DNA from: Rhizobium sp. Q54
GTDB lineage: Bacteria > Pseudomonadota > Alphaproteobacteria > Rhizobiales > Aestuariivirgaceae
Length of the DNA stretch: 60,611 bases
Assembly: GCA_945889445.1 (NCBI GenBank)
Contig: CAMDBX010000016.1
Coordinates: 1-60,611, forward strand
Direction of reading: 5' to 3'
Notes under the pieces: generated by a model
What the model saw: the letters and a program-made list of their open reading frames with translations, nothing else
What the model was told of the DNA's origin: nothing
The model's database searches: none
Shown here: piece after piece, positions 33,013 through 49,198 of the stretch
Layout: every line of letters begins with the position of its first letter
How positions within the stretch are numbered: the stretch's first letter is position 1
Made by a program: the position numbers and the translations under genes

Positions 33013-33354
33013 TCACTCTCCCTCGGGCGCGGCAAAGCCGGCACCTTTGCCCTCGGCCTGCTTGCCGAGGTCCAGTCTCACGGTTGGTCCCAGAGCGCGC
33101 ATGCGCTCGCGGATATGTGCGGCGCGTACCCGGCCTTCCAGGCGCTCGGCATCGACGAGATAGGCCCCCGTCACGATGGTCTTCTTCTCGTCGTCGCGGG
33201 CGCGCGCCTCGAGTGCGGCGGCGGCCTGCGGCTCCAGCGCCAGCACGGCCTCGTCGATCACCTCGCTCCAGTCACCCCCACGGGTGAGAAACACAGCGAT
33301 CCCGTCACGCAGGCGGTTGGCGGTAACCAGTTGTCCCTTTTCAGGCGTTGTCAT
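33013..33354 (-). CDS. DUF2849 family protein
   Basis: This is a 113-residue soluble protein with MTTPEKGQLVTANRLRDGIA at its start and GAYLVDAERLEGRVRAAHIR near the middle. DUF2849 proteins occur in alphaproteobacteria between siroheme synthase and sulfite reductase genes. No biochemical function is established. It overlaps cysG by 4 bp (ATGA) and precedes cysI by 6 bp, so it is an integral member of this operon. The acidic, Gly-rich tail is not conserved-looking. Confidence 0.85.
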   Translation of the reverse strand: MTTPEKGQLVTANRLRDGIAVFLTRGGDWSEVIDEAVLALEPQAAAALEARARDDEKKTIVTGAYLVDAERLEGRVRAAHIRERMRALGPTVRLDLGKQAEGKGAGFAAPEGE

Positions 33355-34370: not shown

Positions 34371-34451
34371 CGCATCTGCTCCCGTTGCTGTCTGTTCGCT
34401 GTTCCAAACGTTCGGTCTTCCGGACAGGCTCTTGGGGCAAAACACGAATTC

Positions 34452-34467
34452 GTTTGAACTAAAGGAC
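34452..34467. promoter_or_regulatory. Candidate sulfur-regulon operator S1 (weak copy)
   Basis: GTTTGAACTAAAGGAC matches the site upstream of the peroxiredoxin gene at 12 of 16 positions and S2 at 10 of 16. It lies 82 bp upstream of the cysG start. Confidence 0.4.
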
Positions 34468-34513
34468 GAAAACGCGGTATCAAGAGGCCCATCGGAACAC
34501 ACAAAAGAGGTGT

Positions 34514-34531
34514 TGTTCGTTATAACGAACA
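34514..34531. promoter_or_regulatory. Candidate sulfur-regulon operator S2 (perfect palindrome)
   Basis: TGTTCGTTATAACGAACA is an 18-bp perfect palindrome in the cysG/XRE-cupin intergenic gap, 26 bp before the regulator's start. The TATAAC inside it could act as a -10 element, so binding there would be expected to repress the regulator's own transcription. Confidence 0.6.
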
Positions 34532-34556
34532 CCAGTTCTAAGTTCAGGACGACGAA

Positions 34557-35180
34557 ATGTCAACGCGTCGCGGCAGCAAAAACAGCTCTTCACAGGACTT
34601 TGACCCGACCCCCTCCCTGGGCAAGACCATCCAGCGGCTGCGCAAGGCCTACAACATGTCGCTGGGCGACTTGTCGGAGCATTCAGGCGTTGCCAAGTCG
34701 ATCATCTCCCAGATCGAGCGGAACGAAACAAACCCAACTCTTTCAACGGTGTACCGGCTGTCGCGGGCACTCGACACGACAATTGACGAGGTGCTGCGCA
34801 CTGAGGGTGCGGCGCTGTTCCTCGAGCACCAGACGAAGTCCGGCGTGCCGATCCTCGAAAGCCAAGATGGTTTGTGCCGGCTGGCCATTGCCGGACCGCT
34901 GAACCTCGTCGATCAGGTGCAGTGGTACGATTTCCGGGCCAAGGAGGGCGGCGTTCTGGAATCGGACCCCCATCCGCAGGGCACCGTTGAGCACCTCTAC
35001 ATCCTGGCCGGAGAGCTGGACGTGACCACCGGCGAGGAAACCCGCCGGGTGAAGGTGGGCGAGACGCTGCGCTTCCGGGGCGACCTGCCCCACAAGATCG
35101 TCAATGTTGGTGCGGGCGACGCCCACGCCACCATGATGCTGGTTCTCCGCCAGCTTGGCTCCGCCGACAACAGCGGCTGA
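34557..35180 (+). CDS. XRE-cupin transcriptional regulator (SutR-like)
   Basis: This 207-residue regulator has an N-terminal XRE helix-turn-helix (about residues 20-75; LGKTIQRLRKAYNMSLGDLS, SGVAKSIISQIERNETNPTL) and a C-terminal cupin barrel (about 110-200; VEHLYILAGELDV, GETLRFRGDLPHKIVNVG). This is the architecture of E. coli SutR (YdcN), a regulator of sulfur utilisation. It is divergent from the cys operon, with a perfect palindrome between them, and 17 bp upstream of chaC. I infer control of sulfur assimilation genes, possibly with a thiol or sulfur metabolite bound by the cupin. The ligand and the direction of regulation are unknown. Confidence 0.88.
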   Translation: MSTRRGSKNSSSQDFDPTPSLGKTIQRLRKAYNMSLGDLSEHSGVAKSIISQIERNETNPTLSTVYRLSRALDTTIDEVLRTEGAALFLEHQTKSGVPILESQDGLCRLAIAGPLNLVDQVQWYDFRAKEGGVLESDPHPQGTVEHLYILAGELDVTTGEETRRVKVGETLRFRGDLPHKIVNVGAGDAHATMMLVLRQLGSADNSG

Positions 35181-35197
35181 GGAAGGGCTGGGGAGCG

Positions 35198-35893
35198 ATG
35201 CGCCGCAAGCTCGTTCTCACCCCCGACCTTGTGTCGCGCGTCGAGCGCAAGATCCCGCAGGACCACCTTCCCCCCGACCCTGACCGCGTGCCCATGGCGG
35301 ACGCGGACTACGCCGAGGCCGTCACCCATATTGTCGCCAAACACGGACCAGGTCCGATCTGGGTCTTCGCCTATGGTTCGCTGCTGTGGAACCAGGGGTT
35401 CGACTTTAACGAGCGTCGGCCTGCGACCTTACGGGGCTGGCACCGCGCCTTCTGCATACAGCTGTCACGCTTCAGGGGTTCGCCCGAGCAGCCCGGCCTG
35501 ATGCTCGGGCTCGACAATGGCGGCTCCTGCAAGGGCGAGGTGTTCCGCATCGATGAGGCTTCGGCATCTGTCCAGCTCGACAAGCTTTTGCGTCGGGAGG
35601 TGCCCTTCCGCCGCATAGCCAACGCGTGGCGCTGGGTTGACGTCGACATCGCGGGCACTCGCCAGAAGGCGCTCACCTTTTATGCCGGCATGCGGCGGGA
35701 CCGCTTCTACGTGGACCTGCCGATCCATGCCCAGGCCCACATGCTGGCACGTGCCGCCGGTTGGGCCGGATCAGGTGCTGCCTATCTGCACGCCACGGTC
35801 ATGAAGCTGGAGGAGCTGGGCATTCACGACACGTACCTGTGGGAGCTCCAATACCTCGTGGCGGCTGAGATCCGCCAGTTCTCAGGCAAGTGA
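35198..35893 (+). CDS. chaC: Glutathione-specific gamma-glutamylcyclotransferase (ChaC family)
   Basis: This 231-residue ChaC protein cleaves glutathione to 5-oxoproline and Cys-Gly. The family signature VFAYGSLLW lies near residue 56. The catalytic-type Glu is in LLRREVPF, and VMKLEELGIHDTYLW is near the C-terminus. It starts 17 bp after the XRE-cupin stop, so the regulator and glutathione breakdown are probably co-transcribed. That placement suggests a route that releases cysteine from glutathione when sulfur is limiting. Its last 12 bp overlap the dprA 3' end, which is convergent. Confidence 0.9.
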   Translation: MRRKLVLTPDLVSRVERKIPQDHLPPDPDRVPMADADYAEAVTHIVAKHGPGPIWVFAYGSLLWNQGFDFNERRPATLRGWHRAFCIQLSRFRGSPEQPGLMLGLDNGGSCKGEVFRIDEASASVQLDKLLRREVPFRRIANAWRWVDVDIAGTRQKALTFYAGMRRDRFYVDLPIHAQAHMLARAAGWAGSGAAYLHATVMKLEELGIHDTYLWELQYLVAAEIRQFSGK

Positions 35894-36982
35894 AACGGAA
35901 CCATCCGGGTGGCGGGTGATCCGCCCCGCCAGCGCCAGTTCGAGCAGCAAGGCCGAGAGTGTTGCCGCGTCGAAGCCGCTTTCGCGCGCCAGGTCATCTG
36001 TGTCGATAGGATTGGGTGAGAGCAGCTCCAGCAGGTGGCGCATGTCGGCGGCGTCCGGCTGGCGCAAGGGCAGGGGCGGCGGATCCGGCTCGAAGAAGCT
36101 CATCTGGCGGGGGCCTTCGCTGCCAAGCGCCTCCAGCACGTCGCGTGATGACATCAGCAGCGTGGCACCATCGCGGATAAGCCGGTTGGTGCCTTCGCAA
36201 CGCGGGTCGAGCGGCGATCCCGGAACCGCAAAGACGTCGCGGCCCTGTTCGGCGGCGAACCGGGCAGTGATCAGTGAGCCTGAGCGCAATGCCGCCTCCA
36301 CCACGATCAGCGCGCGCGACATGCCGGAGATGATCCGGTTGCGGCGTGGGAAGAAGTCCGCCTTTGGCTCGGTGCCCGGCACCTGCTCCGACACGATCAG
36401 TCCACGCTCGCCGATCGCGGCATGCAGTGCGGCGTTCTCCGGTGGATAAATCACGTCAAGACCTCCTGCCACCACGGCAATGGTACCGCTGTCGAGGGCT
36501 GCATCATGGGCCGCCGTGTCGATGCCGCGCGCAAGGCCGGAGACGATCACGTGTCCCTCCTGGCCGATCTACTGCGCCAGTTGCCGGGAGAACTTTCGCG
36601 CCAGTGCGGAGGCATTGCGGGCGCCCACGATGGCAACGCCGCTGCGGGTAAGGAGGCGTTCATCACCCTTGATGCAAAGCAGCGGTGGCGCGGTATCGGC
36701 CTGCCTGAGCAAGGACGGATATGAGGGCTCGATGCTGCACAGGAAGCGCGCCCCGATCCTTTCCGCATTTGCGATGGCGCGCTCGGCGGCATCACGGCTC
36801 CAGATCCGCGGCGGGCGGTTGAGCCCACCCCTGCGGGTCAGGTCGGGAAGCGCGCGGAGAGCCGCGCCGGCGGTGTGGAAACGTTTGATGAGCTTCTTGA
36901 AGGTGGTGGGCCCGACATTCTCGCTTCTCGAGAGGATCAGCCAGTTGAGGCGTTCCTCGTCCGTGAGCGGGCCACCGCTCAT
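35882..36982 (-). pseudogene. dprA: DNA processing protein DprA, interrupted by an amber codon
   Basis: The frame from MSGGPLTDEERLNWL through GVAIVGARNASALARKFSRQ is a normal DprA N-terminal half. A TAG at 36571-36569 follows LAQ, after which the same frame continues IGQEGHVIVSGLARGIDTAA through the Rossmann fold (FPRRNRIISGMSRALIVVEA) and the C-terminal winged helix (residues about 300-366). The stop falls between two conserved motifs and replaces what is normally Glu, Asp or Gln. DprA loads RecA onto incoming single-stranded DNA in transformation, so loss would probably impair natural transformation. A GTG at 36550 could restart the C-terminal part. A sequencing error at one base is the main alternative. 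Confidence 0.85.
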
Positions 36983-36993
36983 TCAAGTGTCCA

Positions 36994-37596
36994 TCATGCA
37001 GTTGTCGACTTTCCGATGCGCGGTTCCTCGCCCTTGAGGATGCGCGAAATGTTGGCGCGGTGGGTGACGAAGATCGCCGCTCCCATGATCACGGCGGGCA
37101 GGATCAAGTCACCCCGCCCCAGCGCGTAAGCCGCGAAGGGTGACAGGAAGCTCGCCGTGAGGGCGGAGAGCGAGGAGATGCGAAACAGCAGGGCCATGAT
37201 GATCCAGACGGCGAGGAAGATCAGGCCAAGCGGCCAGAACAGCCCGAACAGCACGCCGATATTGGTGGCAACACCCTTGCCGCCCTTGAAACCCAGCCAC
37301 ATGGGGAACAGGTGTCCGAAAAAGGCTGCAAGCCCGCCGAGCGCGCCCGCTTCGGGCCCATAGAGCCAGCCCATCACCAGGGCGGGCACGGCGCCCTTCA
37401 GCGCGTCGAGGATCAGGGTGAGGGCGGCGACCTTCTTGTTTCCCGTGCGCAGCACGTTGGTGGCGCCGATGTTGCCCGAGCCGATGGTCCGGATGTCACC
37501 CAGCCCAGCCGATTTCGTCAGGATCAGCCCGAAGGGGATGGTCCCGCAGAGATAGCCGAACACCAGCGCGATGATCATCTCGAGGCCGGAGCCCAT
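36994..37596 (-). CDS. plsY: Glycerol-3-phosphate acyltransferase PlsY
   Basis: This 200-residue inner-membrane enzyme acylates glycerol 3-phosphate with acyl-phosphate, the first step of phospholipid synthesis. The three PlsY motifs are present: [11 protein letters not shown] near residue 45, [18 protein letters not shown] (about residues 95-110) and a C-terminal [18 protein letters not shown]. Five or so helices are visible. Two adjacent ATGs (37599 and 37596) follow GAGGAA; I prefer 37596 because the spacing is better. It lies between pyrC' and dprA, the conserved alphaproteobacterial order. Confidence 0.94.
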
Positions 37597-37618
37597 CATT
37601 TCCTCATGCACGAATTGG

Positions 37619-38935
37619 TCAGCGCGGAGCGTAGGCGAAGACGCTCTCGCCCGCAACGACGGTCTCCACCGCCCGGCCTTCCAGCGTGCGGTGCTCGAAG
37701 GGTGAATTCTTGGCGCGCGAGCGCAGAACATCCTCCTCGACAGTCCACGACATGTTGACGTCGACCAGCACGAAATCGGCAGGCGCACCCGGCGCCAGCC
37801 GCCCGGTTTCGAGCTTCAGGATCTCGGCGGGCTTTGAAGACAGGGCCTCGACCAGCCGCGACAGCGGGACGCCGTCATTGTGATGCAGTCCGATTGCTGC
37901 CGAGAGCATGGTTTCCAGACCGATGGCGCCATAGGCGGCCTCGGCGAAGGGCAGGCGCTTGGTGTCGGCACTTTGCGGGTCGTGGCCCGAGACGATGACG
38001 TCGATGGTGCCGTCCGCGAGCGCTTCCACCAGGGCGCGCCGGTCGTCCTCGGCGCGGAGCGGCGGCGAGAGCTTGAAGAATGTGCGGTAGGCGCCGATGT
38101 CGTTCTCGTTGAGAACCAGATGATGGATCGACACGCCGCAGGTCACGGGCAGGCCCTTCACCTTTGCGGCGCGCATCACCTCCACCGAATTCTGTCCCGA
38201 GATCTGCGAGGCATGGTAGCGGGCACCCGTCATCTCGACGAGGCGCAGGTCGCGCTCCAGCATGATGACCTCGGACATGGCAGGATTGCCGGACAGGCCG
38301 AGACGGCTGGCCGCTTCGCCGGCGTTCATCACGCCTGATGAGAGTGTTGGCTCCTCGACGTGCTGCACCACCAGCATGTCGAAGTCCTTGGCATACATCA
38401 GCGCACGGCGGAACACATTGGCATTGACGAGGGCCCGCGTGCCCTCGGTGATGGCCACGGCACCTGCTTCCTTGAGCAGGCCGATTTCGGTTATCAGTTC
38501 GCCGCCGAGGCCCTTGGTAATCGCCGCCATGGGCGCCACGCGCACCGAGGCGGTGTCGCGCGCGCGCCTGAGGATGAAATCGACAATGGCTGCATCGTCG
38601 ATCACCGGCTGGGTGTTGGGCATGACGATCATGGTGGTCACGCCGCCTGCTGCCGCAGCGCCCGAAGCACTGGCCAGCGTCTCGCGGTATTCGGTGCCGG
38701 GCTCGCCGGTGAACACCCGCATGTCGATCAGGCCAGGAATGAGGGTGAGGCCCTTGCAGTCGGTGACGGTGGCGGAGGCGCCGACGCTGTCCTTCGTCAC
38801 CTTGGGCCCGACGTCGAGAATCCAGCCGTCCTCGATCAGGATGCCGCCCTTGCCATTGAGGCCCTGGGCAGGCGCCACGATGTTGGCGTTCACATAGGCG
38901 CGGCGGCGGGCGCTGTGCTTGGCGGGGTTGATCAT
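37619..38935 (-). CDS. pyrC: Dihydroorotase-like protein, probably non-catalytic (PyrC')
   Basis: This 438-residue amidohydrolase-fold protein of the dihydroorotase type is usually encoded with pyrB. The canonical metal-binding DxHxH is replaced: [14 protein letters not shown] stands where an active enzyme has D-M-H-V-H. The usual second metal-ligand loop is also altered (QHVEEP). Inactive dihydroorotase homologues (PyrC'/PyrX) are known to form structural complexes with aspartate carbamoyltransferase, and I infer the same here. A catalytic dihydroorotase must be encoded elsewhere. It overlaps pyrB by 4 bp and is followed 22 bp later by plsY. Confidence 0.85.
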
Positions 38936-39891
38936 GAATTGTCTCCGCCGGGCATGTTGCGGCTCAGGGCGTCGAGCACCGCCATGCGCACGGCGACGCC
39001 CATCTCCACTTGTTCGCGGATCACGGATTGAACGCCGTCGGCAACATCCGAGTCGATCTCGATGCCCCGGTTCATGGGGCCGGGGTGCATCACCATGGCG
39101 TCCGGTTTCGCCAGCCTCAGCTTCTCGGCGTTGAGGCCATAGAAGCGGTAGTATTCGCGGATCGAGGGCACGAAGGCGCCGGTCATGCGCTCAAGCTGCA
39201 GCCGCAGCATCATGACAACGTCGGCGCCCCGCAGGCCGCTGTCCATGCTGCGGTGAACCTCGACGCCGAAATTGGCGATGCCGGAGGGCAGCAGGGTGGA
39301 GGGCGCCACCACGCGCACCTGCGCGCCCAGCTTGTTGAGCAGGTGAATGTTGGAGCGCGCCACGCGCGAATGCAACACGTCGCCGCAGATCGCCACGATG
39401 AGGCCCTCGAACTGGTTCTTGTGGCGGCGGATGGTGAGCGCATCGAGCAGCGCCTGCGTGGGGTGCTCGTGCTGGCCGTCGCCTGCGTTTATGACGGCGC
39501 AGGATACCTTCTGGGCGAGAAGTTCGGCCGCACCCGAGGATTGGTGGCGCACCACCAGGAAGTCGGGCTGCATGGCATTGATGGTCATTGCCGTGTCGAG
39601 CAGCGTCTCGCCCTTGGAGACGGCGGAGTTGGCGACTGCCATGTTCATCACGTCGGCGCCCAGGCGCTTGCCAGCGATCTCGAAGGATGACTGGGTGCGG
39701 GTGGAGGCCTCGAAGAACAGGTTTACCTGTGTCCGGCCCTGAAGCACCAGCTGACGCTTGTCGGTCTGGCGGCTCACCTCGACGTAGCGCGCGGCCAGGT
39801 CGAGGATGCGGATTGCTTCAAGTGATGAGATATCGTCGATGGCCAGCAGGTGCTGGCGCTTGAGGAGCGGCGGGCGGGCATCGCGTGTCAT
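38932..39891 (-). CDS. pyrB: Aspartate carbamoyltransferase catalytic subunit
   Basis: This roughly 319-residue enzyme condenses carbamoyl phosphate and aspartate in pyrimidine synthesis. The carbamoyl-phosphate loop [20 protein letters not shown] (about residues 47-66), the [15 protein letters not shown] motif and the C-terminal HPGPMNRG are intact. The start is uncertain: ATG at 39891 ([10 protein letters not shown]) or at 39912. Neither has a strong Shine-Dalgarno, and I chose 39891 to match usual family length. The TGA stop overlaps the pyrC' start (ATGA). A catalytic/inactive-dihydroorotase pair is expected. Confidence 0.93.
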
Positions 39892-39957
39892 TAAAGCCGG
39901 GTGTGTAAGCATTATCCCGGCGCGCCGCAAGCCTCATCTGGGGGCTTTGCACAAGCC

Positions 39958-40893
39958 TTAAGCGCCAACCCCGGCCAGCCAGAGAATGAGGGGGATGGTG
40001 ACAGCCGCCGCGATCACCTGCACGGTCAGCATGTTGGCCACCATGGGCGCATCGCCCCCCATCTTGCGGGCCAGCACATAGGCCCCGGAGCCGGTGGGCA
40101 CCGCCCCGCACAGCAACGCCACCGCGAAGGCCTCACCATGCACCCCCATCAGCCACAGGGTGGCCGCCATCAGGGCTGGCATGGCGAGCAGCTTCAGCAC
40201 CACGGCCAGCGCCACCGGTGGCCATTCCTTGACCACCGAGCCAATCCGCAGTCCCGCGCCCACGGTGAGGAGCGCAAGGCCCAGCGCCCCCCGCCCGATC
40301 ATGTCCAGCACCTGCAGCCCCATGGCCGGCAGCTCAAGCCCCGAGAGCTGCCAGGCAACCCCGCCAAGCGACGAGAACACGAACGGGTTCTTGAGGATCG
40401 ACAGCAGAAGCGCGCCTGGTGCCACATAGGTTTCGTGCGCGTAGCGGGCCATGACGATGACGCAGAGGATGTTGAGGAGCGGCGTCATCGCCGCCGCACT
40501 CACCGCACCCAGCGACAGCGCCTGCGTTCCGAAGACGAGCGGAATGATGGCGAAGGCAATGAAGGTGTGCCAGCGCGCCGAACCCTGGACCAGCGAGGTG
40601 AACTGCGGTCCGCTGATGCCGAGCCCGGCCATCAGCGGGCGGCTGAACAGCACGAGAAGCCCGATCATCGCGATCACCGAAACCGCCATGGCGCTCGCCA
40701 TCTGCAGCACCGGCACGCCGGCAAAATCGGCGGCTGCGATCTCCTTGAAGATGATGACCGGGAACAGCACGAAATAGCAGACGTGGTCGAGCCCCGCCCA
40801 TTGCTCCGTCGAGATGACCTCGCCCTTCCGCAGGGCGAAACCCACCAGAATGACGATGAACACCGGCAGCAGGGCGAGGAAGATCGTCGTCAT
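39958..40893 (-). CDS. AEC (auxin efflux carrier) family transporter
   Basis: This 311-residue inner-membrane protein has about ten hydrophobic helices in two inverted halves, resembling AEC/BASS-fold exporters (VFIVILVGFALRKGEVIS at the start). Substrates of bacterial AEC proteins include organic acids; no specific substrate can be called. The start at 40893 (MTTIFLALLP) overlaps the ruvX stop (ATGA), indicating translational coupling. A 39-aa insertion-like stretch is not seen, and length is normal. It precedes pyrB on the same strand with a 66-bp gap. Confidence 0.85.
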   Translation of the reverse strand: MTTIFLALLPVFIVILVGFALRKGEVISTEQWAGLDHVCYFVLFPVIIFKEIAAADFAGVPVLQMASAMAVSVIAMIGLLVLFSRPLMAGLGISGPQFTSLVQGSARWHTFIAFAIIPLVFGTQALSLGAVSAAAMTPLLNILCVIVMARYAHETYVAPGALLLSILKNPFVFSSLGGVAWQLSGLELPAMGLQVLDMIGRGALGLALLTVGAGLRIGSVVKEWPPVALAVVLKLLAMPALMAATLWLMGVHGEAFAVALLCGAVPTGSGAYVLARKMGGDAPMVANMLTVQVIAAAVTIPLILWLAGVGA

Positions 40894-41354
40894 CTGAGTG
40901 AATCGAGTGCCGCCTGCAGGATCCACGCGGCGGCCAGCTTGTCGATCACCTCGTCGCGCTTGGCGCGTGAGGCATCCGCCTGGATCAACATGCGCTCCAC
41001 CGCGGCCGTGGACAGGCGTTCATCCCAGAACACCACGGGCGTGGGCGACAGCCTGGCGAAGTTCCGCGCAAAGGAGCGGGTGGACTGGCAGCGCGGCCCC
41101 TCGGTGCCGTCCATGTTGACGGGCAAGCCCAGTATGATGAGCCCGATGTTCTCCGCCGTGATGATTTCGAGAAGTCGCTCGGCATCCTTGGTGAACTTCT
41201 TCCGCGCAATGGTCTCGATCGGTGTGGCGATCATCCGGGTGCGGTCGCTGGTGGCCACCCCGATGGTCTTCGAGCCAAGGTCGAGTGCCATTAGCCGCCT
41301 GTCCGGCGGAATGGCGGCAATGGCTTGGGTCAGGGTGAGGTCGGTGGAGGCCAT
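40890..41354 (-). CDS. ruvX: RuvX/YqgF family Holliday junction resolvase-like protein
   Basis: This 154-residue RNase-H-fold protein is involved in 16S rRNA 5'-end maturation and/or resolution of recombination intermediates. Signature segments are LMALDLGSKTIGVATSD near residue 22, NIGLIILGLPVNMDGTEG, and FWDERLSTAAVERML, with the acidic residues of the active site. The start at 41354 includes about 20 unconserved residues. It is followed by the AEC transporter with a 4-bp overlap. In alphaproteobacteria it often lies near pyrB and gatC, as here. Confidence 0.9.
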   Translation of the reverse strand: MASTDLTLTQAIAAIPPDRRLMALDLGSKTIGVATSDRTRMIATPIETIARKKFTKDAERLLEIITAENIGLIILGLPVNMDGTEGPRCQSTRSFARNFARLSPTPVVFWDERLSTAAVERMLIQADASRAKRDEVIDKLAAAWILQAALDSLR

Positions 41355-41399
41355 GGCTGTCGGTTTAGTGGATTACGACCGACAAGCAAGCTCCCGCGT

Positions 41400-41546
41400 C
41401 CTCTCCCGCTTTAGCGGCAGAGGAGGGGCCCCCAACGCAGTTGGGGTAGGTGAGGGGACGCGCTCTCTGAGCGTGCCCGTCTCCCCTCATCTCCCCGTTG
41501 CGTACGCAACGGGTCCCTTCTTCTCCCGCTCAGGAAGCGGGAGAAG
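41400..41546. repeat. Multi-hairpin intergenic repeat element
   Basis: Nearly all of the ruvX/UPF0173 gap is inverted-repeat DNA. Hairpins include 41430-41446 (CCCCAAC/GTTGGGG); a nested structure at 41451-41490 (TGAGGGG...CCCCTCA with CGCTC/GAGCG inside); a perfect 20-bp palindrome CCCGTTGCGTACGCAACGGG (41494-41513); and 41520-41546 (CTTCTCCCGCT/AGCGGGAGAAG). This looks like a dispersed rhizobial-type palindromic element, non-coding and transcribed as structured RNA if read through. No copy of the whole unit occurs elsewhere in the window. Confidence 0.65.
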
Positions 41547-41628
41547 ACGAATGGGCATGCACGGCAACCATCACCTTGCCATTCCCGGACCGGCGGAGGA
41601 TACATCCACCATCCCAAGGAGTGCCCAG

Positions 41629-42336
41629 ATGAAGATCACCTATCACGGCCATTCGGCCTTCCGGATCGAGACCGGCGACGCCGTCATCCTCGTCGACCCG
41701 TTCTTCACCGGCAACCCGGCCGCCACGGTGGGTTGGCAGGAGGCCAGCACGGGCCTGACGCACCTGCTTCTCACCCATGGCCACGGCGACCATGTGGGTG
41801 ACTCGCTCGAGATCCTGAAGACCACGGGTGCCACACTCGTTTCCAATTTCGAAGTCTGCTCCTGGCTCAACGGCAAGGGCGCAGAAAAATACAGTCCGGG
41901 CAACCACGGCGGCCGCATCAGCTTCGACGACTTCGACGTGATCTTCACCAATGCCTGGCACTCGTCCTCCGACATGGTGGCGGGTCAGCCCGTCTACCTC
42001 GGCAACCCTGCGGGGTTCGTGATCGAACCGAAGAAGGAGCATGGCAACACGCTCTACATCGCTGGCGACACCGGCTTGTCCTACGACATGAAGCTGATTC
42101 AGGAGCTCTACCGCCCTGAAATCGGCATCCTGCCGATCGGCGACCGCTTCACCATGGGCGGCGACCAGGCGGCCTATGCTTGCCGTCATTTCTTCGATTT
42201 CAAGACCGTCATTCCCTGCCACTTCGCCTCCTTCAAGGGCTATGTTGATGATGACGCCTCCAAGTTCCTCAAGGCCATGGGCCCGGACGCCGCCAAGGTT
42301 CGCGTGATGACGTCCTGCGAAACGATGACATTCTGA
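41629..42336 (+). CDS. UPF0173 metal-dependent hydrolase
   Basis: This 235-residue metallo-beta-lactamase-fold protein has the metal motif HGHGDHVGD (about residues 48-56) and a further Asp in IAGDTGLSYDM. A C-terminal IPCHFASF histidine is the last ligand candidate. The family is widespread and of unknown substrate. The start has AAGGAG nine bases upstream. The stop overlaps the next gene's ATG by one base (TGATG), suggesting coupling. It lies just before gatC in other alphaproteobacteria too. Confidence 0.9.
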   Translation: MKITYHGHSAFRIETGDAVILVDPFFTGNPAATVGWQEASTGLTHLLLTHGHGDHVGDSLEILKTTGATLVSNFEVCSWLNGKGAEKYSPGNHGGRISFDDFDVIFTNAWHSSSDMVAGQPVYLGNPAGFVIEPKKEHGNTLYIAGDTGLSYDMKLIQELYRPEIGILPIGDRFTMGGDQAAYACRHFFDFKTVIPCHFASFKGYVDDDASKFLKAMGPDAAKVRVMTSCETMTF

Positions 42337-43031
42337 TGGCAAAGAAACCCGAACGTCCGGTGGGGCGGGTGGTCGACCCGCTGCCATCCGGCTCCAAGCC
42401 CGACATGCGCCCGCTGCACGGCCGCTGGGTGGTGCTGGAACCGGTTTTCGCCGCAGCCCACGCCAAGGACCTCTACGACAGCTTCAAGGACAGTGACCCC
42501 GAGGGCGATGTCTGGACATACATGCCATATGGCCCATGGCAATCCTTCGAGCAGTTCGAGGCTTGGGTGAAGGATCGCGCAACCTCGCGCGACCCGTGGT
42601 TCTATGCCTTCATCAACCGCGCCACCGGCAAGGCCGTTGGCATGGGGGCCTTCATGCGGTCCGACGCGCCCAACGGGGTGATCGAGATCGGCCACATCTG
42701 GATGTCGCCCGGCCTGCAGCAGACCAGAGAGGCCACCGAGGTAATCTTCCTGATGATCCGCCACTGCTTCGATGACCTGGGCGTCCGACGGCTCGAATGG
42801 AAGTGCGACGCCCTCAACGCCCCCTCGCGCAAGGCGGCGGAACGCTTCGGTTTCACGTTCGAGGGTGTTTTCCGCCAGCACCTGATCGTCAAGGGTCGGA
42901 ACCGCGATACCGCTTGGTTCGCCATTCTGGACAAGGACTGGCAGCTCATCCGGGCGGGGTTCGAGCGCTGGCTGGACCTCAGGAACTTCGATGAAAAGGG
43001 CCGCCAGAAAGCCAAGTTGCAGGTGGCTTGA
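42336..43031 (+). CDS. GNAT family N-acetyltransferase (RimJ/RimL-like)
   Basis: This 231-residue acetyltransferase (GNAT fold) is of the RimJ/RimL type. The acetyl-CoA-binding region is around [20 protein letters not shown], and [20 protein letters not shown] is a family hallmark, followed by [20 protein letters not shown]. The substrate is unknown; it may be a protein N-terminus or a small amine. It is coupled to the UPF0173 gene by a one-base overlap and is 48 bp upstream of gatC. Start and length agree with homologues of this type. Confidence 0.9.
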
Positions 43032-43078
43032 GCGGGTGCTATTCCGCCCCACGAGAGAGTTCCCAAGGGTTTGATTTC

Positions 43079-43366
43079 ATGTCGGTCGATCAGAAAACCG
43101 TGAAGCGTGTGGCGCGCCTGGCGCGCCTCAAGGTGAAGGAAGAGGACGTGCCGCGCCTGGCCGGCGAACTCAACGCCATCCTCGGCTTCATCGAGCAGCT
43201 GAACGAGGTCGACGTGGCCAATGTGGAGCCCATGACCTCGGTGGTCACCATGAAGATGAAGATGCGGAACGACGTGGTGACCGACGGTCATTACCCGCAG
43301 AAGATCGTCGCCAACGCGCCAGCGCAAGATGATGAGTTCTTCATGGTCCCGAAGGTGGTGGAGTAA
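43079..43366 (+). CDS. gatC: Asp/Glu-tRNA amidotransferase subunit GatC
   Basis: This 95-residue subunit helps assemble the GatCAB amidotransferase that converts Glu-tRNA-Gln and Asp-tRNA-Asn to the amidated forms. The typical [19 protein letters not shown] start, the [20 protein letters not shown] middle and the C-terminal VPKVVE are present. The start at 43079 follows GGGTTTGATTTC. gatA begins 6 bp after the stop. The GatC call is secure from sequence and from the next gene. Confidence 0.95.
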
Positions 43367-43371
43367 CCGTC

Positions 43372-44838
43372 ATGAGCAACCTCACCGCCCTTACCATCGC
43401 GGCCGCCCGCGACGGCCTCAAGAAGAAGCAGTTCACCGCGCTTGAGCTTACGGATGCCTATCTCGCCGCCATGGAGAAGGCCCGCGTGCTCAACGCCTAT
43501 ATTGTCGAGACGCCGGAAAAGGCGCGCGACATGGCCAAGGCCTCGGACGCGCGGCTGGCCGCCGGGCAGGGCGGTGCGCTGGAAGGCATTCCGCTCGGCA
43601 TCAAAGACCTCTTCGCCACCGAAGGCGTGCACACCCAGGCCTGCAGCCACGTGCTCGACGGCTTCAAGCCGCAATATGAATCCACCGTCAGCGCCAACCT
43701 GTGGCGCGATGGTGCGGTGATGCTCGGCAAGCTCAACATGGACGAGTTCGCCATGGGCTCGTCCAACGAGACGAGCTACTACGGCAACGTCATCAATCCG
43801 TGGAAGCGCACGAACTCCAACGCGGCCCTCGTGCCGGGCGGTTCCTCGGGCGGTTCCGCCGCTGCCGTTGCAGCGCACATCTGTGCTGCCGCCACGGCCA
43901 CAGACACCGGCGGCTCGATCCGCCAGCCCGCCGCATTCACCGGCACGGTCGGCATCAAGCCGACCTATGGCCGCTGCTCGCGCTGGGGCATCGTTGCCTT
44001 CGCTTCGTCGCTCGATCAGGCAGGCCCCATCGCACGCGACGTGCGCGATGCCGCAATCATGCTGAAGTCGATGGCGAGCGTCGACCCCAAGGACGCCACT
44101 TCGGTCGACCTTCCCGTACCCGATTACGAAGCCGCCATCGGCCGCCCGATCAAGGGTCTGCGCGTCGGCATCCCGAAGGAATACCGCGTCGACGGCATGC
44201 CGGCCGAGATCGACGCGCTGTGGAGCAAGGGGGCGGAGTGGCTGAAGGCTCAAGGAGCCGAGATCGTCGAGATCTCACTCCCTCACACCAAATATGCGCT
44301 GCCAGCCTATTACATCGTGGCGCCCGCCGAGGCTTCATCCAACCTCGCGCGCTATGACGGCGTGCGCTACGGCCTGCGCGTTCCGGGCGACGACATCGTC
44401 GACATGTACGAGAAATCCCGCGCCGCCGGCTTTGGCCGCGAGGTGCAGCGCCGCATCCTGATCGGCACCTATGTGCTATCGGCTGGCTACTACGATGCCT
44501 ATTATGTCCGCGCCCAGAAGGTCCGCACACTGATCAAGAACGACTTCGACAAGGCCTGGGACAAGGTGGACGTGGTGCTGACCCCGGCCACGCCCAGCCC
44601 CGCCTTCGCGCCGGGCGAGATCACCGATCCCGTCCAGATGTACCTGAACGACATCTTCACCGTCACGGTGAACATGGCAGGCCTTCCCGGCATCGCCGTG
44701 CCCGCCGGCCTCTCCGCCGACGGCCTACCGCTGGGGCTTCAGCTCATCGGCAAGCCCTTCGGCGAGGAGACCCTGTTCCAGGCCGCCGCCGCCATTGAAG
44801 CCGCGGCAGGGGGCTACACCGCGCCGCAGTGGTGGTGA
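43372..44838 (+). CDS. gatA: Asp/Glu-tRNA amidotransferase subunit GatA
   Basis: This 488-residue amidase subunit hydrolyses glutamine and channels ammonia to GatB. The amidase catalytic triad is visible: Lys78 in [14 protein letters not shown], the cis-Ser in [13 protein letters not shown] (about residue 158) and the nucleophile Ser in [14 protein letters not shown]. Length is normal. gatB is not next to it and must be elsewhere, as in many alphaproteobacteria. A strong terminator (44889-44914) on the other strand lies just beyond the convergent peroxiredoxin gene. Confidence 0.96.
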
Positions 44839-44888
44839 GGCTTACGCCCGCCAAACACCTGACCCGGCGATCCTTTTTCGCGGCCACC

Positions 44889-44914
44889 AAAAAAAGGCCG
44901 GGACAAGCCCGGCC
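44889..44914 (-). terminator. Intrinsic terminator of the peroxiredoxin gene
   Basis: On the minus strand GGCCGGG pairs with CCCGGCC around a short loop and is followed by a run of seven T. It is 26 bp past the peroxiredoxin stop, a textbook rho-independent terminator. Confidence 0.9.
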
Positions 44915-44939
44915 ACGATGAACGTCGGCGAAATCTGAA

Positions 44940-45599
44940 TTACTTCGGCTGCGGCACAACCCGCAGATACGGCTTCAGCGTCTTCCAGCCACCGGGGAAC
45001 TTCTCCTTCGCGGTCTCATCCGACAGTGAGGCAAGGATGATCACGTCCTCGCCCTGCTTCCAGTCGGCAGGCGTGGCCACCGACTTGGTTGCGGTGAGCT
45101 GCAGCGAGTCCACCACGCGGACGATTTCATTGAAGTTGCGGCCCGTGCTCATCGGGTAGGAGGCGATGAACTTCACCTTCTTGTCCGGCCCGATGATGAA
45201 CACGCTGCGCACCGTGGCGTTGTCAGCCGCCGTGCGGCCCTTGGCATTGCCCGAGGCATTGGGGTGGATCATGCCATAGAGCTTGGCAACCGAGAGGTCC
45301 TCGTCGCCGATCATCGGATAGTTCACGGTCGCGCCGGTGACGTCCTTGATGTCGTCCTTCCAGCGCTTGTGATCCTCGACCGAGTCAATCGAGATGCCGA
45401 TCAGCTTCACGCCGCGCTTGTCGAACTCATGCTTCATCTTGGCAACCGAGCCCAGCTCGGTGGTGCAGACAGGGGTGAAGTCCTTGGGATGAGAGAAAAA
45501 CACCACCCAGGAGCCATCGATGTAGTCATGGAACTTCAGGTGGCCATCCGTGGTGTTGGCCTCGAAGTCCGGGGCGATATCGCCGATTTGCAGTGACAT
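44940..45599 (-). CDS. Peroxiredoxin, 1-Cys (Prx6-like) type
   Basis: This 219-residue peroxidase reduces peroxides with its peroxidatic Cys45 in KDFTPVCTTELG. DFEANTTDGHLKFHDYIDGS precedes it. The sequence carries a long C-terminal segment (RNFNEIVRVVDSLQLTATKS, QGEDVIILASLSDE) as in Prx6-type enzymes, and no second resolving cysteine is obvious. The start at 45599 (MSLQIGDIAPDF) has family agreement; an upstream Met adds 13 unconserved residues. Its promoter region contains the GTTCG-N6-type motif at 45643-45660 with a TATATT -10-like hexamer next to it, and the gene ends in a strong terminator. Confidence 0.92.
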   Translation of the reverse strand: MSLQIGDIAPDFEANTTDGHLKFHDYIDGSWVVFFSHPKDFTPVCTTELGSVAKMKHEFDKRGVKLIGISIDSVEDHKRWKDDIKDVTGATVNYPMIGDEDLSVAKLYGMIHPNASGNAKGRTAADNATVRSVFIIGPDKKVKFIASYPMSTGRNFNEIVRVVDSLQLTATKSVATPADWKQGEDVIILASLSDETAKEKFPGGWKTLKPYLRVVPQPK

Positions 45600-45642
45600 G
45601 GTTTTCTCCGTCTCTTGGATGCCCAGAATATAGATCAAGCGC

Positions 45643-45660
45643 TGTTCGTAATAAAGAACA
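45643..45660. promoter_or_regulatory. Candidate sulfur-regulon operator S3
   Basis: TGTTCGTAATAAAGAACA matches the perfect palindrome in the cys/XRE gap at 16 of 18 positions. It lies 43 bp upstream of the peroxiredoxin start, in the -35 region if TATATT (about 45627-45632) is the -10. Confidence 0.55.
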
Positions 45661-45743
45661 ATTTGTCCGGTAATTCGTTCAGTCCGGCTTTGCGGGAATC
45701 GCGGGACTTGGGCTAGCTAGGGGCACACCGGAGAACAGCCACC

Positions 45744-46148
45744 ATGAAGTATATCATTTCCTTTCCCGCCCTCGCCATCGTGATCGCGGCCTATCTGCTG
45801 ATGGCGGCGGGCGGCGACATGCTGATCGACGGTGATGCCTATTCGATGACACTGGCCTCGGGTGCCGAGATGACGCTGAGGGGCGGAGATGTCTTCGTGA
45901 TCGCTGGGCTGTTTGCCCTGTTCCTCGAAATGCTGAAGGCCGCCCGCCCGGGCCGGGCCGCGGTACTAGACCACGTCCTGTCCGTCGGCACCTTCGTCGT
46001 CGCGCTCGTTGCCTTCCTGCTGGTCGACTATGCCGGCACGGCGCCGTTCTTCATCCTGACCCTGATGACGCTGGTTGACGTCATCGCGGGCTTCGCGATC
46101 TCGCTGTTCTCGGCGAGATGCGATCTGGCGATCGGCAGCGACCGCTAG
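45744..46148 (+). CDS. Small membrane protein, unknown function
   Basis: This 134-residue protein has four hydrophobic segments (residues about 5-24, 48-65, 78-98 and 100-120) and a short polar tail. I see no family signature beyond an inner-membrane protein with a DUF-like 4-TM topology. The first helix, with no classic signal-peptidase site, suggests an N-terminal signal anchor. It is divergent from the peroxiredoxin and converges, with a 4-bp gap, on the large flavoprotein gene. The function is unknown. Confidence 0.7.
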   Translation: MKYIISFPALAIVIAAYLLMAAGGDMLIDGDAYSMTLASGAEMTLRGGDVFVIAGLFALFLEMLKAARPGRAAVLDHVLSVGTFVVALVAFLLVDYAGTAPFFILTLMTLVDVIAGFAISLFSARCDLAIGSDR

Positions 46149-46152
46149 CGCC

Positions 46153-48612
46153 TCATGCCTTGATGCGTTCGCCCTTGGGGTCGTAGAAAGACTGGAACTG
46201 AACCTTGGCCGAATAGCGCTTCCACGCCAGTTCCACTTCCCACTTGCCCGCATCGATCCAGTCCTTGGTGACGCCGTCCGCGTTGTGGACATAGCCCAGA
46301 CCCAGAGACAGGTTCACGCGGTGGCCCCAGGCGCCTGAGGTGGTCGAGCCAACGAGCACGCCGTTCCGGTAGATCGGCTCCTCGTGATAGATCATCGGCG
46401 CCGTGGCGGAATTGTCCTCGAGTGCGAGGCAGACGAAGCGCTTCGGCAGCACCGGCAGGGCCTTCTGCTTCAGCAGCGCCTCGCGGCCGATGAAGCCGCC
46501 CGGCTTGTCCATGGCGACGGCGAAGCCAAGGCCGGCTTCGAGGGGCGTGTCCTCATCCGCAATGTCATGGCCCCAGTGGCGGTAGGCCTTTTCGGTGCGG
46601 CAGTTGTTCATGGTGTGCATGCCTGCCGGCGTCAGGCCGAACTCCTTGCCGCCCTCCTGCAGCACCTCGAACACGTGTGCGGTGAACTCGGTGGGGATAT
46701 AGAGTTCCCAGCCCAGTTCGCCCACATAGGTGATGCGGCTCGCCCGCACACGGGCGTAGCCCACCTCGAGTTCCTTCGACGTGCCGAAGGGGAAGGCGGC
46801 ATTGGAGAGATCCGCGCCCGAGACTTTCTCGAGCAGTGCGCGCGACTTCGGCCCCATGATGGCGATCATCGGCAGGCCTGAGGTAATGTCGGTTGCCACA
46901 CAATGCGCGTCGAATGGCGTGTGGCGCTTGAGCCATGCCATGTCGCGGGTCTGCGGTGCGGCACCCGTCACGACGAGGAACTTGTTCTCCTCCAGCCTGG
47001 TGACGGTGAGGTCGGCTTCGATGCCGCCGCGCTCGTTCAGCCATTGGGTGTAGACGAGGCGACCCGGTTCAACGTCGACGTTCGCGGCCGAAACGCGGTT
47101 CAGCACCTTGAGTGCATCGCGGCCCTCGACCGAATACTTGGCGAAGCTCGACTGGTCGAAGAAGGCGCAGTGGGTCATCAGCTGCTTGGCTTCATGGTCG
47201 GCGCAGGGGAACCAGTTCTGGCGGCCATAGGAGTATTCATATTCGGGCTTCACGCCACCGCGGGCATACCAGTTGGGGCGCTCCCAGCCGTTCACCTCGC
47301 CGAACACGGCGCCCAGCTCTTTCTCGTATTGATAGAGCGGCGAACGCCTGATGCCGCGGGCCGTCTCCGGCTGGCGGTAAGGCCAGTGCATGGCATAGAG
47401 CAGGCCCAGGCTTTCGGACACGCGCTCGCGCACATAGGACTTCACCGACTGGAAGGGGTGGATGCGGCGAATGTCCATGCCGGTGACGTCCATCGGCGGA
47501 TGGCCGTTCTTTATCCACTTTGAAAGCACCAGGCCCGCACCGCCCGAGGACTGGATGCCGATCGAGTTGAACCCTGCCGCCACATAGACGTTCTTCACCT
47601 CCGGCGCTTCGCCAAGGTAATACTTCACGTCCGGCGTGAAGCTTTCAGGCCCGTTGAAGAACAGCTGGATGCCGGCCGTCTCCAGCAGCGGCACGCGGTT
47701 GATGGCGTCCGCCAGGATCGGCTCGAAGTGCTCCATGTCCTCGGGCAGCGTCACGAAGGCGTGGTCTTCGTCGATGCCGCCACCGCCCCACGGCTTGGCC
47801 TTGGGCTCGAAGGCGCCGATCATCAGCTTGCCGGCATCCTCCTTGTAGTAGGTGCATTCATCCGGCACGCGCACCACAGGCATGTTGCGGGGAAGCTCGG
47901 AGATGGGCTCCGACACGATGTAGAAATGCTCGCAGGCATGGAGCGGAATGTTGACGCCGATGGAACGGCCAAGCTCGCGCGACCACATGCCCGATGCCAC
48001 CACAACCTTGTCGGCGAGGATGGTGCCGTCGCTGGTCTCGACGCCATAGGCCGCTCCGTCCTTGGTCAGGATCCTGGTGACCTTGACGTTCTCCAGCACC
48101 TTGGCCCCGCGTGAGCGCGCGCCCTGGGCCAGCGCCTGCGTCACGTCAATCGGGTTCACCTGTCCGTCCTTGGGCAGGAACACGCCGCCCTTGACGTTCT
48201 CCATGTTGTAGTGCGGCAGGCGTTCCTTGATCTCGCCCGTCGAGATCACCTGCACGTCGAGGCCGAAGTTCTTGGCCATGGAGGCGCCGCGGATCAGTTC
48301 CTCGAGGCGGCCATCGTTCAGCGCGATGGAGATCGAGCCGTTCTGCTTGAAGCCGGTGGCCTGACCGGTTTCCTTCTCCAGCCCCTCGAACAGTGTGGTG
48401 GTGTACTTGGCGAGCTCTGTCAGGTTGCGGGTGGCGCGCAACTGCCCCACGAGGCCCGCCGCGTGCCAGGTCGTTCCGGAGGTGAGCTGCTTGCGCTCCA
48501 GCAGCACGACGTCGGTGATCCCCTCCTTGGTCAGGTGGTAGGCGATTGAACAACCGACGATGCCGCCGCCGATGATGACGACGTCGGCGCGGGCGGGCAG
48601 GGACTTGGACAT
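46153..48612 (-). CDS. Dimethylglycine/sarcosine dehydrogenase-like FAD oxidoreductase
   Basis: This 819-residue flavoenzyme has an N-terminal D-amino-acid-oxidase-type FAD domain (VVIIGGGIVGCSIAYHL, residues about 9-26; GTTWHAAGLVG near residue 50, whose His is the covalent-flavin position in animal dimethylglycine dehydrogenase). A short middle domain follows, then GCV_T aminomethyltransferase-like domains (about residues 435-805). The architecture matches dimethylglycine, sarcosine or related methylamine dehydrogenases that pass one-carbon units to tetrahydrofolate; the exact substrate is unknown. I chose the ATG at 48612 with GGAG upstream, rather than the GTG before it. It is divergent from rhodanese-metZ, with operator-like sequences between. 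Confidence 0.88.
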   Translation of the reverse strand: MSKSLPARADVVIIGGGIVGCSIAYHLTKEGITDVVLLERKQLTSGTTWHAAGLVGQLRATRNLTELAKYTTTLFEGLEKETGQATGFKQNGSISIALNDGRLEELIRGASMAKNFGLDVQVISTGEIKERLPHYNMENVKGGVFLPKDGQVNPIDVTQALAQGARSRGAKVLENVKVTRILTKDGAAYGVETSDGTILADKVVVASGMWSRELGRSIGVNIPLHACEHFYIVSEPISELPRNMPVVRVPDECTYYKEDAGKLMIGAFEPKAKPWGGGGIDEDHAFVTLPEDMEHFEPILADAINRVPLLETAGIQLFFNGPESFTPDVKYYLGEAPEVKNVYVAAGFNSIGIQSSGGAGLVLSKWIKNGHPPMDVTGMDIRRIHPFQSVKSYVRERVSESLGLLYAMHWPYRQPETARGIRRSPLYQYEKELGAVFGEVNGWERPNWYARGGVKPEYEYSYGRQNWFPCADHEAKQLMTHCAFFDQSSFAKYSVEGRDALKVLNRVSAANVDVEPGRLVYTQWLNERGGIEADLTVTRLEENKFLVVTGAAPQTRDMAWLKRHTPFDAHCVATDITSGLPMIAIMGPKSRALLEKVSGADLSNAAFPFGTSKELEVGYARVRASRITYVGELGWELYIPTEFTAHVFEVLQEGGKEFGLTPAGMHTMNNCRTEKAYRHWGHDIADEDTPLEAGLGFAVAMDKPGGFIGREALLKQKALPVLPKRFVCLALEDNSATAPMIYHEEPIYRNGVLVGSTTSGAWGHRVNLSLGLGYVHNADGVTKDWIDAGKWEVELAWKRYSAKVQFQSFYDPKGERIKA

Positions 48613-48724
48613 CACGTAAACTCCGGATCAAATGGTGAATTCTTCTAACAGGGGAGGGCCCTGATCCGGAAGCGCCAAACCGCCTCACGGGAGCGGGCCA
48701 GCCCCTCACCTCTGGCCGGTCCAG

Positions 48725-48733
48725 CCCCCCCCC
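48725..48733. repeat. Run of nine C residues
   Basis: A homopolymer of nine C lies in the gap between the flavoprotein gene and rhodanese-metZ, about 38 bp before the operator-like motif. Such tracts can vary in length by slippage, which might modulate promoter spacing. Confidence 0.5.
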
Positions 48734-48755
48734 TTTTCCTTTGCGGGACGAATCC

Positions 48756-48786
48756 GTTTGGACTAAATCCGTTCGAAACAACGAAC
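48756..48786. promoter_or_regulatory. Candidate sulfur-regulon operator S4 with an adjacent weaker copy
   Basis: GTTCGAAACAACGAAC (48771-48786) has the same GTTCG-N6-CGAAC architecture as S2. Directly upstream, GTTTGGACTAAATCCG (48756-48771) resembles S1, and both contain a CGTTTGRACTAAA stretch. The site is only 10 bp before the rhodanese start codon. Confidence 0.5.
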
Positions 48787-48796
48787 GGATCGTTCC

Positions 48797-49198
48797 ATGC
48801 ATCTGGGTGACATCTCCCCGGCCGAGGCCTATCAGCGGCTCCAGAACAACCCCTCCGCCGTGCTCGTCGACGTGCGCACCCAGCCCGAATGGGTGTTCGT
48901 GGGCGTACCCGCCGTGGAGCGGCTCATCCGCCTGTCCTGGCAGGTGTTCCCGTCGATGCAGGTCAACGGCAATTTCGTCGCCGAGGTCGACCAGTTGGGC
49001 CTGCCCAAGGACGCCGAAATCCTCTGCATCTGCCGTTCCGGCGCGCGCTCGGCTTCGGCCGCCTCGGCGCTGACCCAGGCCGGCTATTCCAACGCCTGGA
49101 ACGTGGCGCAGGGTTTCGAGGGCGACAAGGACGCCACCGGCCACCGCGGCACGCTGGGCGGCTGGAAGGCCGCCGGCCTTCCTTGGGTCCAGAGCTAG
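48797..49198 (+). CDS. Rhodanese-like sulfurtransferase preceding metZ
   Basis: This 133-residue single-domain rhodanese has the active-site Cys79 in the CICRSGARSASA loop (a Cys also at 77). VLVDVRTQPEWVFVG is the first conserved motif. It directly precedes metZ (8 bp gap), so it probably channels sulfur for homocysteine or related thiol metabolism; this is inference from context. There is no strong Shine-Dalgarno; a short leader overlaps the operator-like motif. Other rhodanese-metZ pairs exist in alphaproteobacteria. Confidence 0.9.
   Translation: MHLGDISPAEAYQRLQNNPSAVLVDVRTQPEWVFVGVPAVERLIRLSWQVFPSMQVNGNFVAEVDQLGLPKDAEILCICRSGARSASAASALTQAGYSNAWNVAQGFEGDKDATGHRGTLGGWKAAGLPWVQS

Follow-up and report, generated by a model that had tools for sequence, protein, structure and literature searches.

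A predicted SutR-like operator of sulfur genes in Rhizobium sp. Q54 and its relatives

Contig CAMDBX010000016.1 of Rhizobium sp. Q54 (assembly GCA_945889445.1, 60,611 nucleotides, analysed at full length and hereafter called the window) carries three palindromic sites in intergenic DNA, upstream of a gene for an XRE-cupin regulator, of a peroxiredoxin gene and of a rhodanese-metZ pair. These palindromes are real and not chance matches. They are very probably the binding sites of the small cupin-type regulator, which would control genes of sulfur uptake and use. It is judged highly likely that GTTC-K-TTATAA-M-GAAC is the operator of this SutR-like protein, which would control itself and sulfur genes, most likely as a repressor sensing a sulfur amino acid. 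The sites, their conservation, the gene set and the co-occurrence with the regulator were computed; binding, repression and the ligand are what we infer.

The palindromic sites and the corrected motif

Sites were scored with a weight matrix built from 60 distinct exact sites in the promoters of regulators less than 80% identical to that of the window. The top score of the window (32.6 bits) belongs to the main operator of the XRE-cupin gene, GTTCGTTATAACGAAC (34515-34530), which ends 26 bp before the start codon at 34557. Its 18-bp extension (34514-34531) is a perfect palindrome with 9/9 pairs, and its position at -42 is kept in close relatives. The operator upstream of the peroxiredoxin gene, GTTCGTAATAAAGAAC (45644-45659; 30.5 bits), lies 44 bp from the start codon at 45599 on the minus strand, and the one upstream of rhodanese-metZ, GTTCGAAACAACGAAC (48771-48786; 22.6 bits), lies 10 bp from the rhodanese start at 48797. 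The three sites rank first, second and third in the window, and the best hit of 20 shuffled windows reaches 16.2 bits. The extended sites at 34515 and 45644 agree at 16/18 positions, and those at 45644, 48771 and 34452 pair at 7/9, 6/9 and 3/9, respectively.

The initial annotation had reported these three sites and a weaker fourth copy. All four sequences stand where it had placed them, and the perfect 18-bp palindrome and the 16/18 agreement were verified. For the fourth copy, GTTTGAACTAAAGGAC (34452-34467), the letters are correct, but its status as an operator was not confirmed: it ranks fourth in the window with 10.7 bits, a value exceeded by the best hit of 7/20 shuffled windows. It lies in a partly conserved block that could be a promoter rather than an operator. 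By eye, no further copy had been seen. Weaker copies are nevertheless present in the same gap. A putative second operator, GTTCTAAGTTCAGGAC (34535-34550; 5.7 bits), is found in a conserved block 20 bp away from the main site. The likely ribosome site extends into the right half of this copy and may constrain these letters as well. Two head-to-tail copies (34394-34409 and 34410-34425; 7.1 and 10.1 bits) form a conserved block next to the cysG start (23 bp). In the matrix scan of the window, the scores of the copies at 34535, 34394 and 34410 are within the chance range. In an alignment of the gap from the window and eight relatives, invariant letters cluster in the weak-copy blocks.

The motif itself had to be corrected. 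As originally written, GTTCG-N6-CGAAC gives 48 window matches with up to two mismatches (36.6 in shuffles), and with up to one mismatch it is found 242 times in the whole genome against 289 for the reversed-pattern control. The pattern was dropped because it is not enriched genome-wide, and the half-site GTTCG/CGAAC was replaced by GTTC/GAAC. The intermediate form GTTC-K-N6-M-GAAC was also abandoned, as about half of its matches are expected by chance (32 vs 18 in the control). On comparative grounds, the corrected operator is GTTC-N8-GAAC with an AT-rich centre and G or T beside the half-site. The base preferences at 80 named loci read [T/C]-GTTC-[G/T]-TTATAA-[A/C]-GAAC-[A/G]. Of the AT-centred form GTTC-N-W6-N-GAAC, the 4.94 Mb genome contains three exact copies, two of them in the window, against none in the control. 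The site at 48771 has one mismatch to this form; at that tolerance, the genome holds 13 matches vs 6 in the control.

The third exact AT-centred copy is located on contig 33 (23292), 19 bp before a 2Fe-2S ferredoxin gene. Downstream of the ferredoxin lies a pyridine-nucleotide-disulphide oxidoreductase of the thioredoxin-reductase type, presumably a ferredoxin reductase of the YumC type. A one-mismatch AT-centred site is present 10 bp before the FdxA gene. By their sequence, two ferredoxin promoters outside the window are thus predicted to carry the operator as well. Among the 33 genomic places scored with the 16-bp core, the regulator reached 28.0, the peroxiredoxin 26.8, FdxA 25.4 and the ferredoxin-reductase site 23.3. 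The site C12:47646 was set aside, as it falls in the end of a coding frame, and C128:5363 precedes a gene which, read by eye, we take to encode an arsenite-oxidase subunit.

Conservation, co-occurrence and gene set in relatives

The operator is a recurrent feature of the regulator's own promoter. A search of 199 genomes of the order gave matches in 165, many being distant paralogues. The 62 best XRE-cupin loci, including that of the window, were retained, 57 with an identity of at least 47% and 5 with less than 40%. In the 220 bp upstream, an exact GTTC-N8-GAAC is found at 30/62 loci (mean 0.23, maximum 2 in 200 shuffles), and a site with one mismatch at 49/62 (mean 5.57, maximum 14 in 200 shuffles); the five distant loci have none in this region. 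The autoregulation proposed in the initial annotation is consistent with these promoters. A second set was drawn from a GTDB collection in which 551 stretches encode relatives of the regulator; 80 named loci were kept, with species overlapping the 62-locus set. Here, counted without a shuffle comparison, an exact site is present at 61/80 loci and a site with one mismatch at 70/80. The named relatives that come closest belong to Aestuariivirga and to other Hyphomicrobiales, and 4 of the 80 kept loci are labelled Gammaproteobacteria or Arenicellales. The second site at +20 bp is also recurrent: with up to one mismatch, it is found at 27 of the 56 named loci having an exact site less than 100 bp from the start.

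Motif and regulator also co-occur. In the 29 genomes with a close orthologue, the AT-centred motif occurs 73 times vs 15 in the control, and in the 28 genomes with a more distant orthologue 29 times vs 3, which gives 102 vs 18 for all 57 regulator genomes. The 142 genomes without a close orthologue show no excess (86 vs 87). The excess with the regulator is significant (Mann-Whitney p 3e-10 and 4e-6, phylogeny being ignored in this test). Across the 199 genomes, the co-occurrence check called for in the initial annotation therefore found an excess only where the regulator is present. As a separate observation, two of the genomes without a close orthologue (L375 and L396) contain distant XRE genes (28% and 23% identity) with GTTC-N-W6-N-GAAC 8 and 50 bp upstream. 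Such XRE paralogues may use a related operator on themselves.

The sites outside the regulator promoter point to sulfur metabolism. Counted in 12 of the 29 close-orthologue genomes, the exact pattern occurs at 44 places vs 4 in the control, and 31 of the 43 scanned sites precede the regulator/cysG or a listed target gene. This count is circular, as the reference list was partly drawn from the same genomes. The list comprises the peroxiredoxin, ferredoxin, ferredoxin reductase Fpr, rhodanese-metZ, metY, a sulfate-binding protein, a sulfonate-type binding protein, MetN/MetQ-like proteins, CysH, a CysJ-like protein, CysD and a RimK-like ATP-grasp protein. Several of these names are our assignments, taken from reading the sequences and not from a family search.

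The list, fixed beforehand, was applied to a held-out set of 21 further regulator genomes, some of which share a genus with the first set. The set consists of 13 close-orthologue genomes with at least one match and 8 of the 28 with a more distant orthologue, for which two or more matches were required. Of 42 places, 38 were examined, the four left out being known regulator promoters. Assignments were obtained for 19/38, 3 to the regulator and 16 to other genes (15 sulfur genes and one ATP-grasp gene). Among these 16, metY accounts for 7 (two in one promoter), the sulfate-binding protein for 3, and the sulfonate-type binding protein, rhodanese, CysD, CysJ, MetZ and the ATP-grasp protein for one each. 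The control consisted of 20 genomes, picked for having matches, out of the 142 that lack a close orthologue; 40/43 of their places were examined. None of these 40 sites precedes a sulfur gene; two were assigned, both to distant XRE genes (23-28% identity). The difference between 16/38 and 0/40 is significant (Fisher p 1.3e-6), and it bears out, in genomes outside the reference set, the proposal of a sulfur/thiol regulon, with the predicted operator before cys, met and sulfate-transport genes. The bases beside the half-sites (G/T, A/C) also fit the operator at 25/38 held-out sites vs 6/40 in the control. A post hoc extension of the list, at a minimum identity of 35%, raised the count to 24/38 vs 0/40. 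The families added (MetK, MetX, an SfnB-like protein, a second sulfonate-type binding protein and a KorA-like protein) were chosen after viewing the held-out sites, and the control loci were not eyed likewise. The names MetK, MetX, SfnB-like and KorA are again our own reading of the sequences.

For individual targets, part of the orthologous promoters keep the site. In the 29 close-orthologue genomes, including that of Rhizobium sp. Q54, an operator of at least 20 bits is found at 7/30 peroxiredoxin loci and 13/30 metZ loci (0/600 shuffles each), at 5/29 reductase loci (0/580 shuffles) and at 5/29 fdxA loci (counted without shuffles). Eleven of the 13 metZ sites are located 436-492 bp before metZ, i.e., just before the rhodanese gene. 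In three genomes, a second reductase copy and the regulator are transcribed divergently, 283-291 bp apart, and two of the five strong reductase sites sit in a gap shared with the regulator. On this comparison, individual targets appear to come and go, and the sulfur theme stays.

Two further observations concern the gene set. At six sites, in five of the 33 regulator genomes scanned, a strong operator is followed after 34-65 bp by the gene of a RimK-like ATP-grasp protein of about 330 amino acids (sites at 1501 in L093, L098, L099, L123, L127 and L346). This protein is possibly a new enzyme of sulfur metabolism. In L389, a KorA-like 2-oxoacid:ferredoxin oxidoreductase gene starts about 244 bp after a strong operator, which adds a further link to ferredoxins.

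The regulator, its proposed mechanism and the alternatives

The regulator gene (34557-35180, plus strand) encodes a SutR-like protein of 207 amino acids with the XRE-cupin architecture. The Pfam domains HTH_3 (53.9 bits) and Cupin_2 (40.9 bits) are both above the cut-off, and no LysR domain was detected by Pfam, so that the protein is not of the CysB type. Residues 43-51, 53-54 and 56-61 of the helix-turn-helix (SGVAKSIIS-IE-NETNPT) are invariant in 57/57 orthologues, as are H139, E145 and H179 in the cupin, a region which aligns with 1y9q. A cysteine switch was considered and rejected, since the sole cysteine, Cys107, is kept in only 43/57 orthologues.

The closest described counterpart is SutR (YdcN) of E. 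coli, an XRE-cupin regulator of sulfur utilisation with the same two domains. The two proteins share 28% identity over 170 amino acids covering both domains (E 6e-25 for the pair) and a common cupin stretch, PH-x2-G-x2-EH. The ydcO-sutR gap carries GTCCGTTATAACGCAC and GTGCGTTATAGCGTAC, which are 14/16 and 13/16 like the window palindrome, are the two best matches in 20 kb, and lie 34 and 66 bp before the sutR start. A 14/16 match was the best hit in 0/100 shuffles, and a best hit of 13/16 was reached by at least 4 of a second 100. GTTC-N8-GAAC is not enriched in the 20 kb around sutR (7 vs 7.06) because the SutR half-site would differ by one base. A palindromic motif has been reported for YdcN by ChIP-exo, according to the accessible part of PMC8464067. 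The systems differ in that the window gene is divergent to cysG-cysI-cysH, in the half-site (GTTC, GTSC for SutR) and in the predicted regulon, which here would take in ferredoxins, a probable ferredoxin reductase, the peroxiredoxin and metZ. The best PDB match of the regulator, both by sequence and by Foldseek E-value, is 1y9q, an XRE-cupin regulator of Vibrio cholerae whose cupin stretch aligns with the window protein. Its cupin pocket holds D-methionine, as described in the accessible part of PMC7901475. The P. aeruginosa repressors covered there, among them PauR, PsdR and ErfA, have the same architecture with a metabolite-sensing cupin. They have few and mostly neighbouring targets, unlike the sites predicted here, which are spread over the genome with one metabolic theme and are located on other contigs and loci in the own and related genomes. 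CysB and LsrB/OxyR fill the same role, the control of sulfate assimilation, but are LysR-type and not XRE-cupin proteins. Among titles and abstract openings, no paper was recognised as describing such a regulon in Alphaproteobacteria. Literal forms of the motif retrieved none on the subject by title, and the supplement of PMC12565409, of which the accessible part mentions 223 XRE motif clusters, may list the motif.

A mechanism can be proposed from these elements. A dimer of the regulator would bind each 16-bp site, a dimer on a palindrome being the usual mode of XRE proteins. At its own promoter, the weaker sites 20 bp from the main operator and the pair beside cysG may take part. The protein would control itself, the cysG-cysI-cysH cluster, the peroxiredoxin and rhodanese-metZ, and elsewhere in the genome the 2Fe-2S ferredoxin with its probable ferredoxin reductase, and FdxA. 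In relatives, its predicted targets would also include sulfate and sulfonate uptake, cysD, cysJ, metY and metK. It would most likely be a repressor, since in many cases only 1-60 bp separate the site from the start codon, the starts being predicted ones. The most likely signal for the cupin pocket is a sulfur amino acid, e.g., methionine or cysteine, and the genes would open when sulfur runs short. Binding as a dimer on a palindrome is also described for XRE proteins in the accessible part of PMC12565409.

Several observations weigh against this interpretation. No sigma-70-type promoter was detected by a scan of the three gaps, so that the assignment of a repressor role draws on the distances to the predicted starts. 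The sites of uptake genes are farther upstream, at 66-295 bp, where activation is possible. With the 16-bp core, the metZ site scores 19.7, below an unrelated site (19.9) and equal to the coding-frame site (19.7). It is therefore not separable by its core, and its conservation carries the metZ assignment. No site of at least 20 bits is found at 23/30 peroxiredoxin, 17/30 metZ, 24/29 reductase and 24/29 fdxA loci, and G135, a relative with 95% identical proteins, has lost the site at the peroxiredoxin and the reductase. In the held-out genomes, 19/38 sites lack an assignment under the prespecified list, and 14 lack one after the post hoc families. No tested sulfur gene is near the regulator at 19/80 named loci, of which at least two (L157 and L176) are explained by a contig end. 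As for the protein, the whole-chain TM-score with 1y9q is 0.43, a poor superposition despite the good E-value, at 22% identity. In the structure model, the cupin part is good and the helix-turn-helix part is of low confidence.

The alternative to be taken most seriously, though judged rather unlikely, is that the XRE-cupin protein binds the sites and activates, or dually regulates, the sulfur genes at low sulfur. Genes for the uptake of sulfate, sulfonate and methionine have their sites 66-295 bp ahead of the start, which would suit an activator, and E. coli SutR is annotated as a dual regulator. At cysJ, Fpr, cysH, rhodanese, fdx and the regulator, however, only 1-34 bp separate site and start, a position that is late for activation. 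Moreover, all eight XRE-cupin regulators examined in P. aeruginosa act as inhibitors, according to the accessible part of PMC7901475.

Improbable, judged by the distribution of the motif and by the XRE loci, is the ownership of the palindrome by another regulator, a LysR protein of the CysB, LsrB or OxyR type, with the XRE gene merely as one target. For Agrobacterium, the accessible part of a 2025 study (PMC11975290) reports no CysB relative other than a distant one; there, cys genes are under the control of LsrB and OxyR, and a peroxiredoxin under that of LsrB. A LysR owner could regulate a regulator gene, too. The motif excess nonetheless goes with the XRE orthologue, a palindrome of the same type is found before sutR in E. 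coli, and the XRE promoter keeps its site where no tested sulfur gene adjoins, e.g., in L162 and L167.

Even less probable is a regulator restricted to itself and the cys cluster, with the peroxiredoxin and metZ copies as chance matches or relics. The Pseudomonas XRE-cupin regulators are mostly local in the accessible part of PMC7901475, and the frequent absence of the peroxiredoxin site would agree with a relic. These two sites are, however, second and third best in 60 kb by a matrix trained outside the window, and they recur before orthologues in more than one family, with 0/600 shuffles each. Finally, chance palindromes, which the loose GTTCG-N6-CGAAC would suggest by being as common as its control genome-wide, are hardly credible and are refuted by the AT-centred counts, own promoters, co-occurrence, matrix ranks, orthologous promoters and held-out targets.

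The repressor model, with its SutR-like XRE-cupin protein, is hence preferred. The core of the initial annotation, a sulfur/thiol regulon under the XRE-cupin protein with autoregulation, is borne out as a prediction by the promoter, co-occurrence and held-out comparisons. That reading is supported once the motif is corrected and ChaC is left out, and two more promoters elsewhere in the genome join the predicted regulon.

Gene neighbourhood and biological meaning

Divergent to the regulator, a cys cluster on the minus strand starts with cysG (sirohaem synthase; 33351-34370, Pfam), followed by a DUF2849 gene (33013-33354, Pfam), cysI (sulfite/nitrite reductase haemoprotein; 31351-33006, Pfam NIR_SIR) and cysH (phosphoadenosine phosphosulfate/adenosine phosphosulfate reductase; 30114-30827, Pfam PAPS_reduct). 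Among the named loci, cysG is divergent to the regulator at 41 of the 72 loci with enough upstream DNA, and cysI lies upstream of it at 43/63. Downstream of the regulator, on the plus strand, lies chaC (35198-35893, Pfam ChaC), a lineage-specific neighbour. The glutathione-degrading ChaC had served as an argument for a thiol link. It is not needed, and ChaC was rejected as part of the system, since it follows the regulator in only 5/75 named loci. The other predicted targets of the window are a 1-Cys-type peroxiredoxin (44940-45599, minus strand; Pfam AhpC-TSA and 1-cysPrx_C), a rhodanese-domain protein (48797-49198, plus strand; Pfam Rhodanese) and metZ, an O-succinylhomoserine sulfhydrylase (49207-50400, plus strand; NCBIfam TIGR01325 above cut-off, Pfam Cys/Met pyridoxal phosphate enzyme). 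Elsewhere, in L189 and L194 (labelled Arenicellales, Gammaproteobacteria), a glyA-like gene for serine hydroxymethyltransferase follows the regulator in the same direction. In the window, DprA is split over two frames (35882-36550 and 36569-36982), as if frameshifted.

Tentatively, and as a possibility held at somewhat less than even confidence, a SutR-like XRE-cupin repressor may be the master regulator of sulfate assimilation, replacing CysB in this branch of the Hyphomicrobiales and in some relatives. It would sense a sulfur amino acid and tie the pathway to ferredoxins, ferredoxin reductases and a RimK-like ATP-grasp ligase whose product may be a new sulfur compound or thiol peptide. The analysis puts names to a single regulator, a single operator and a coherent set of genes for sulfur assimilation, which can be tested directly. 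The gene set predicts which ferredoxins feed sulfite reductase, and it draws attention to an ATP-grasp enzyme with a possible place in sulfur metabolism.

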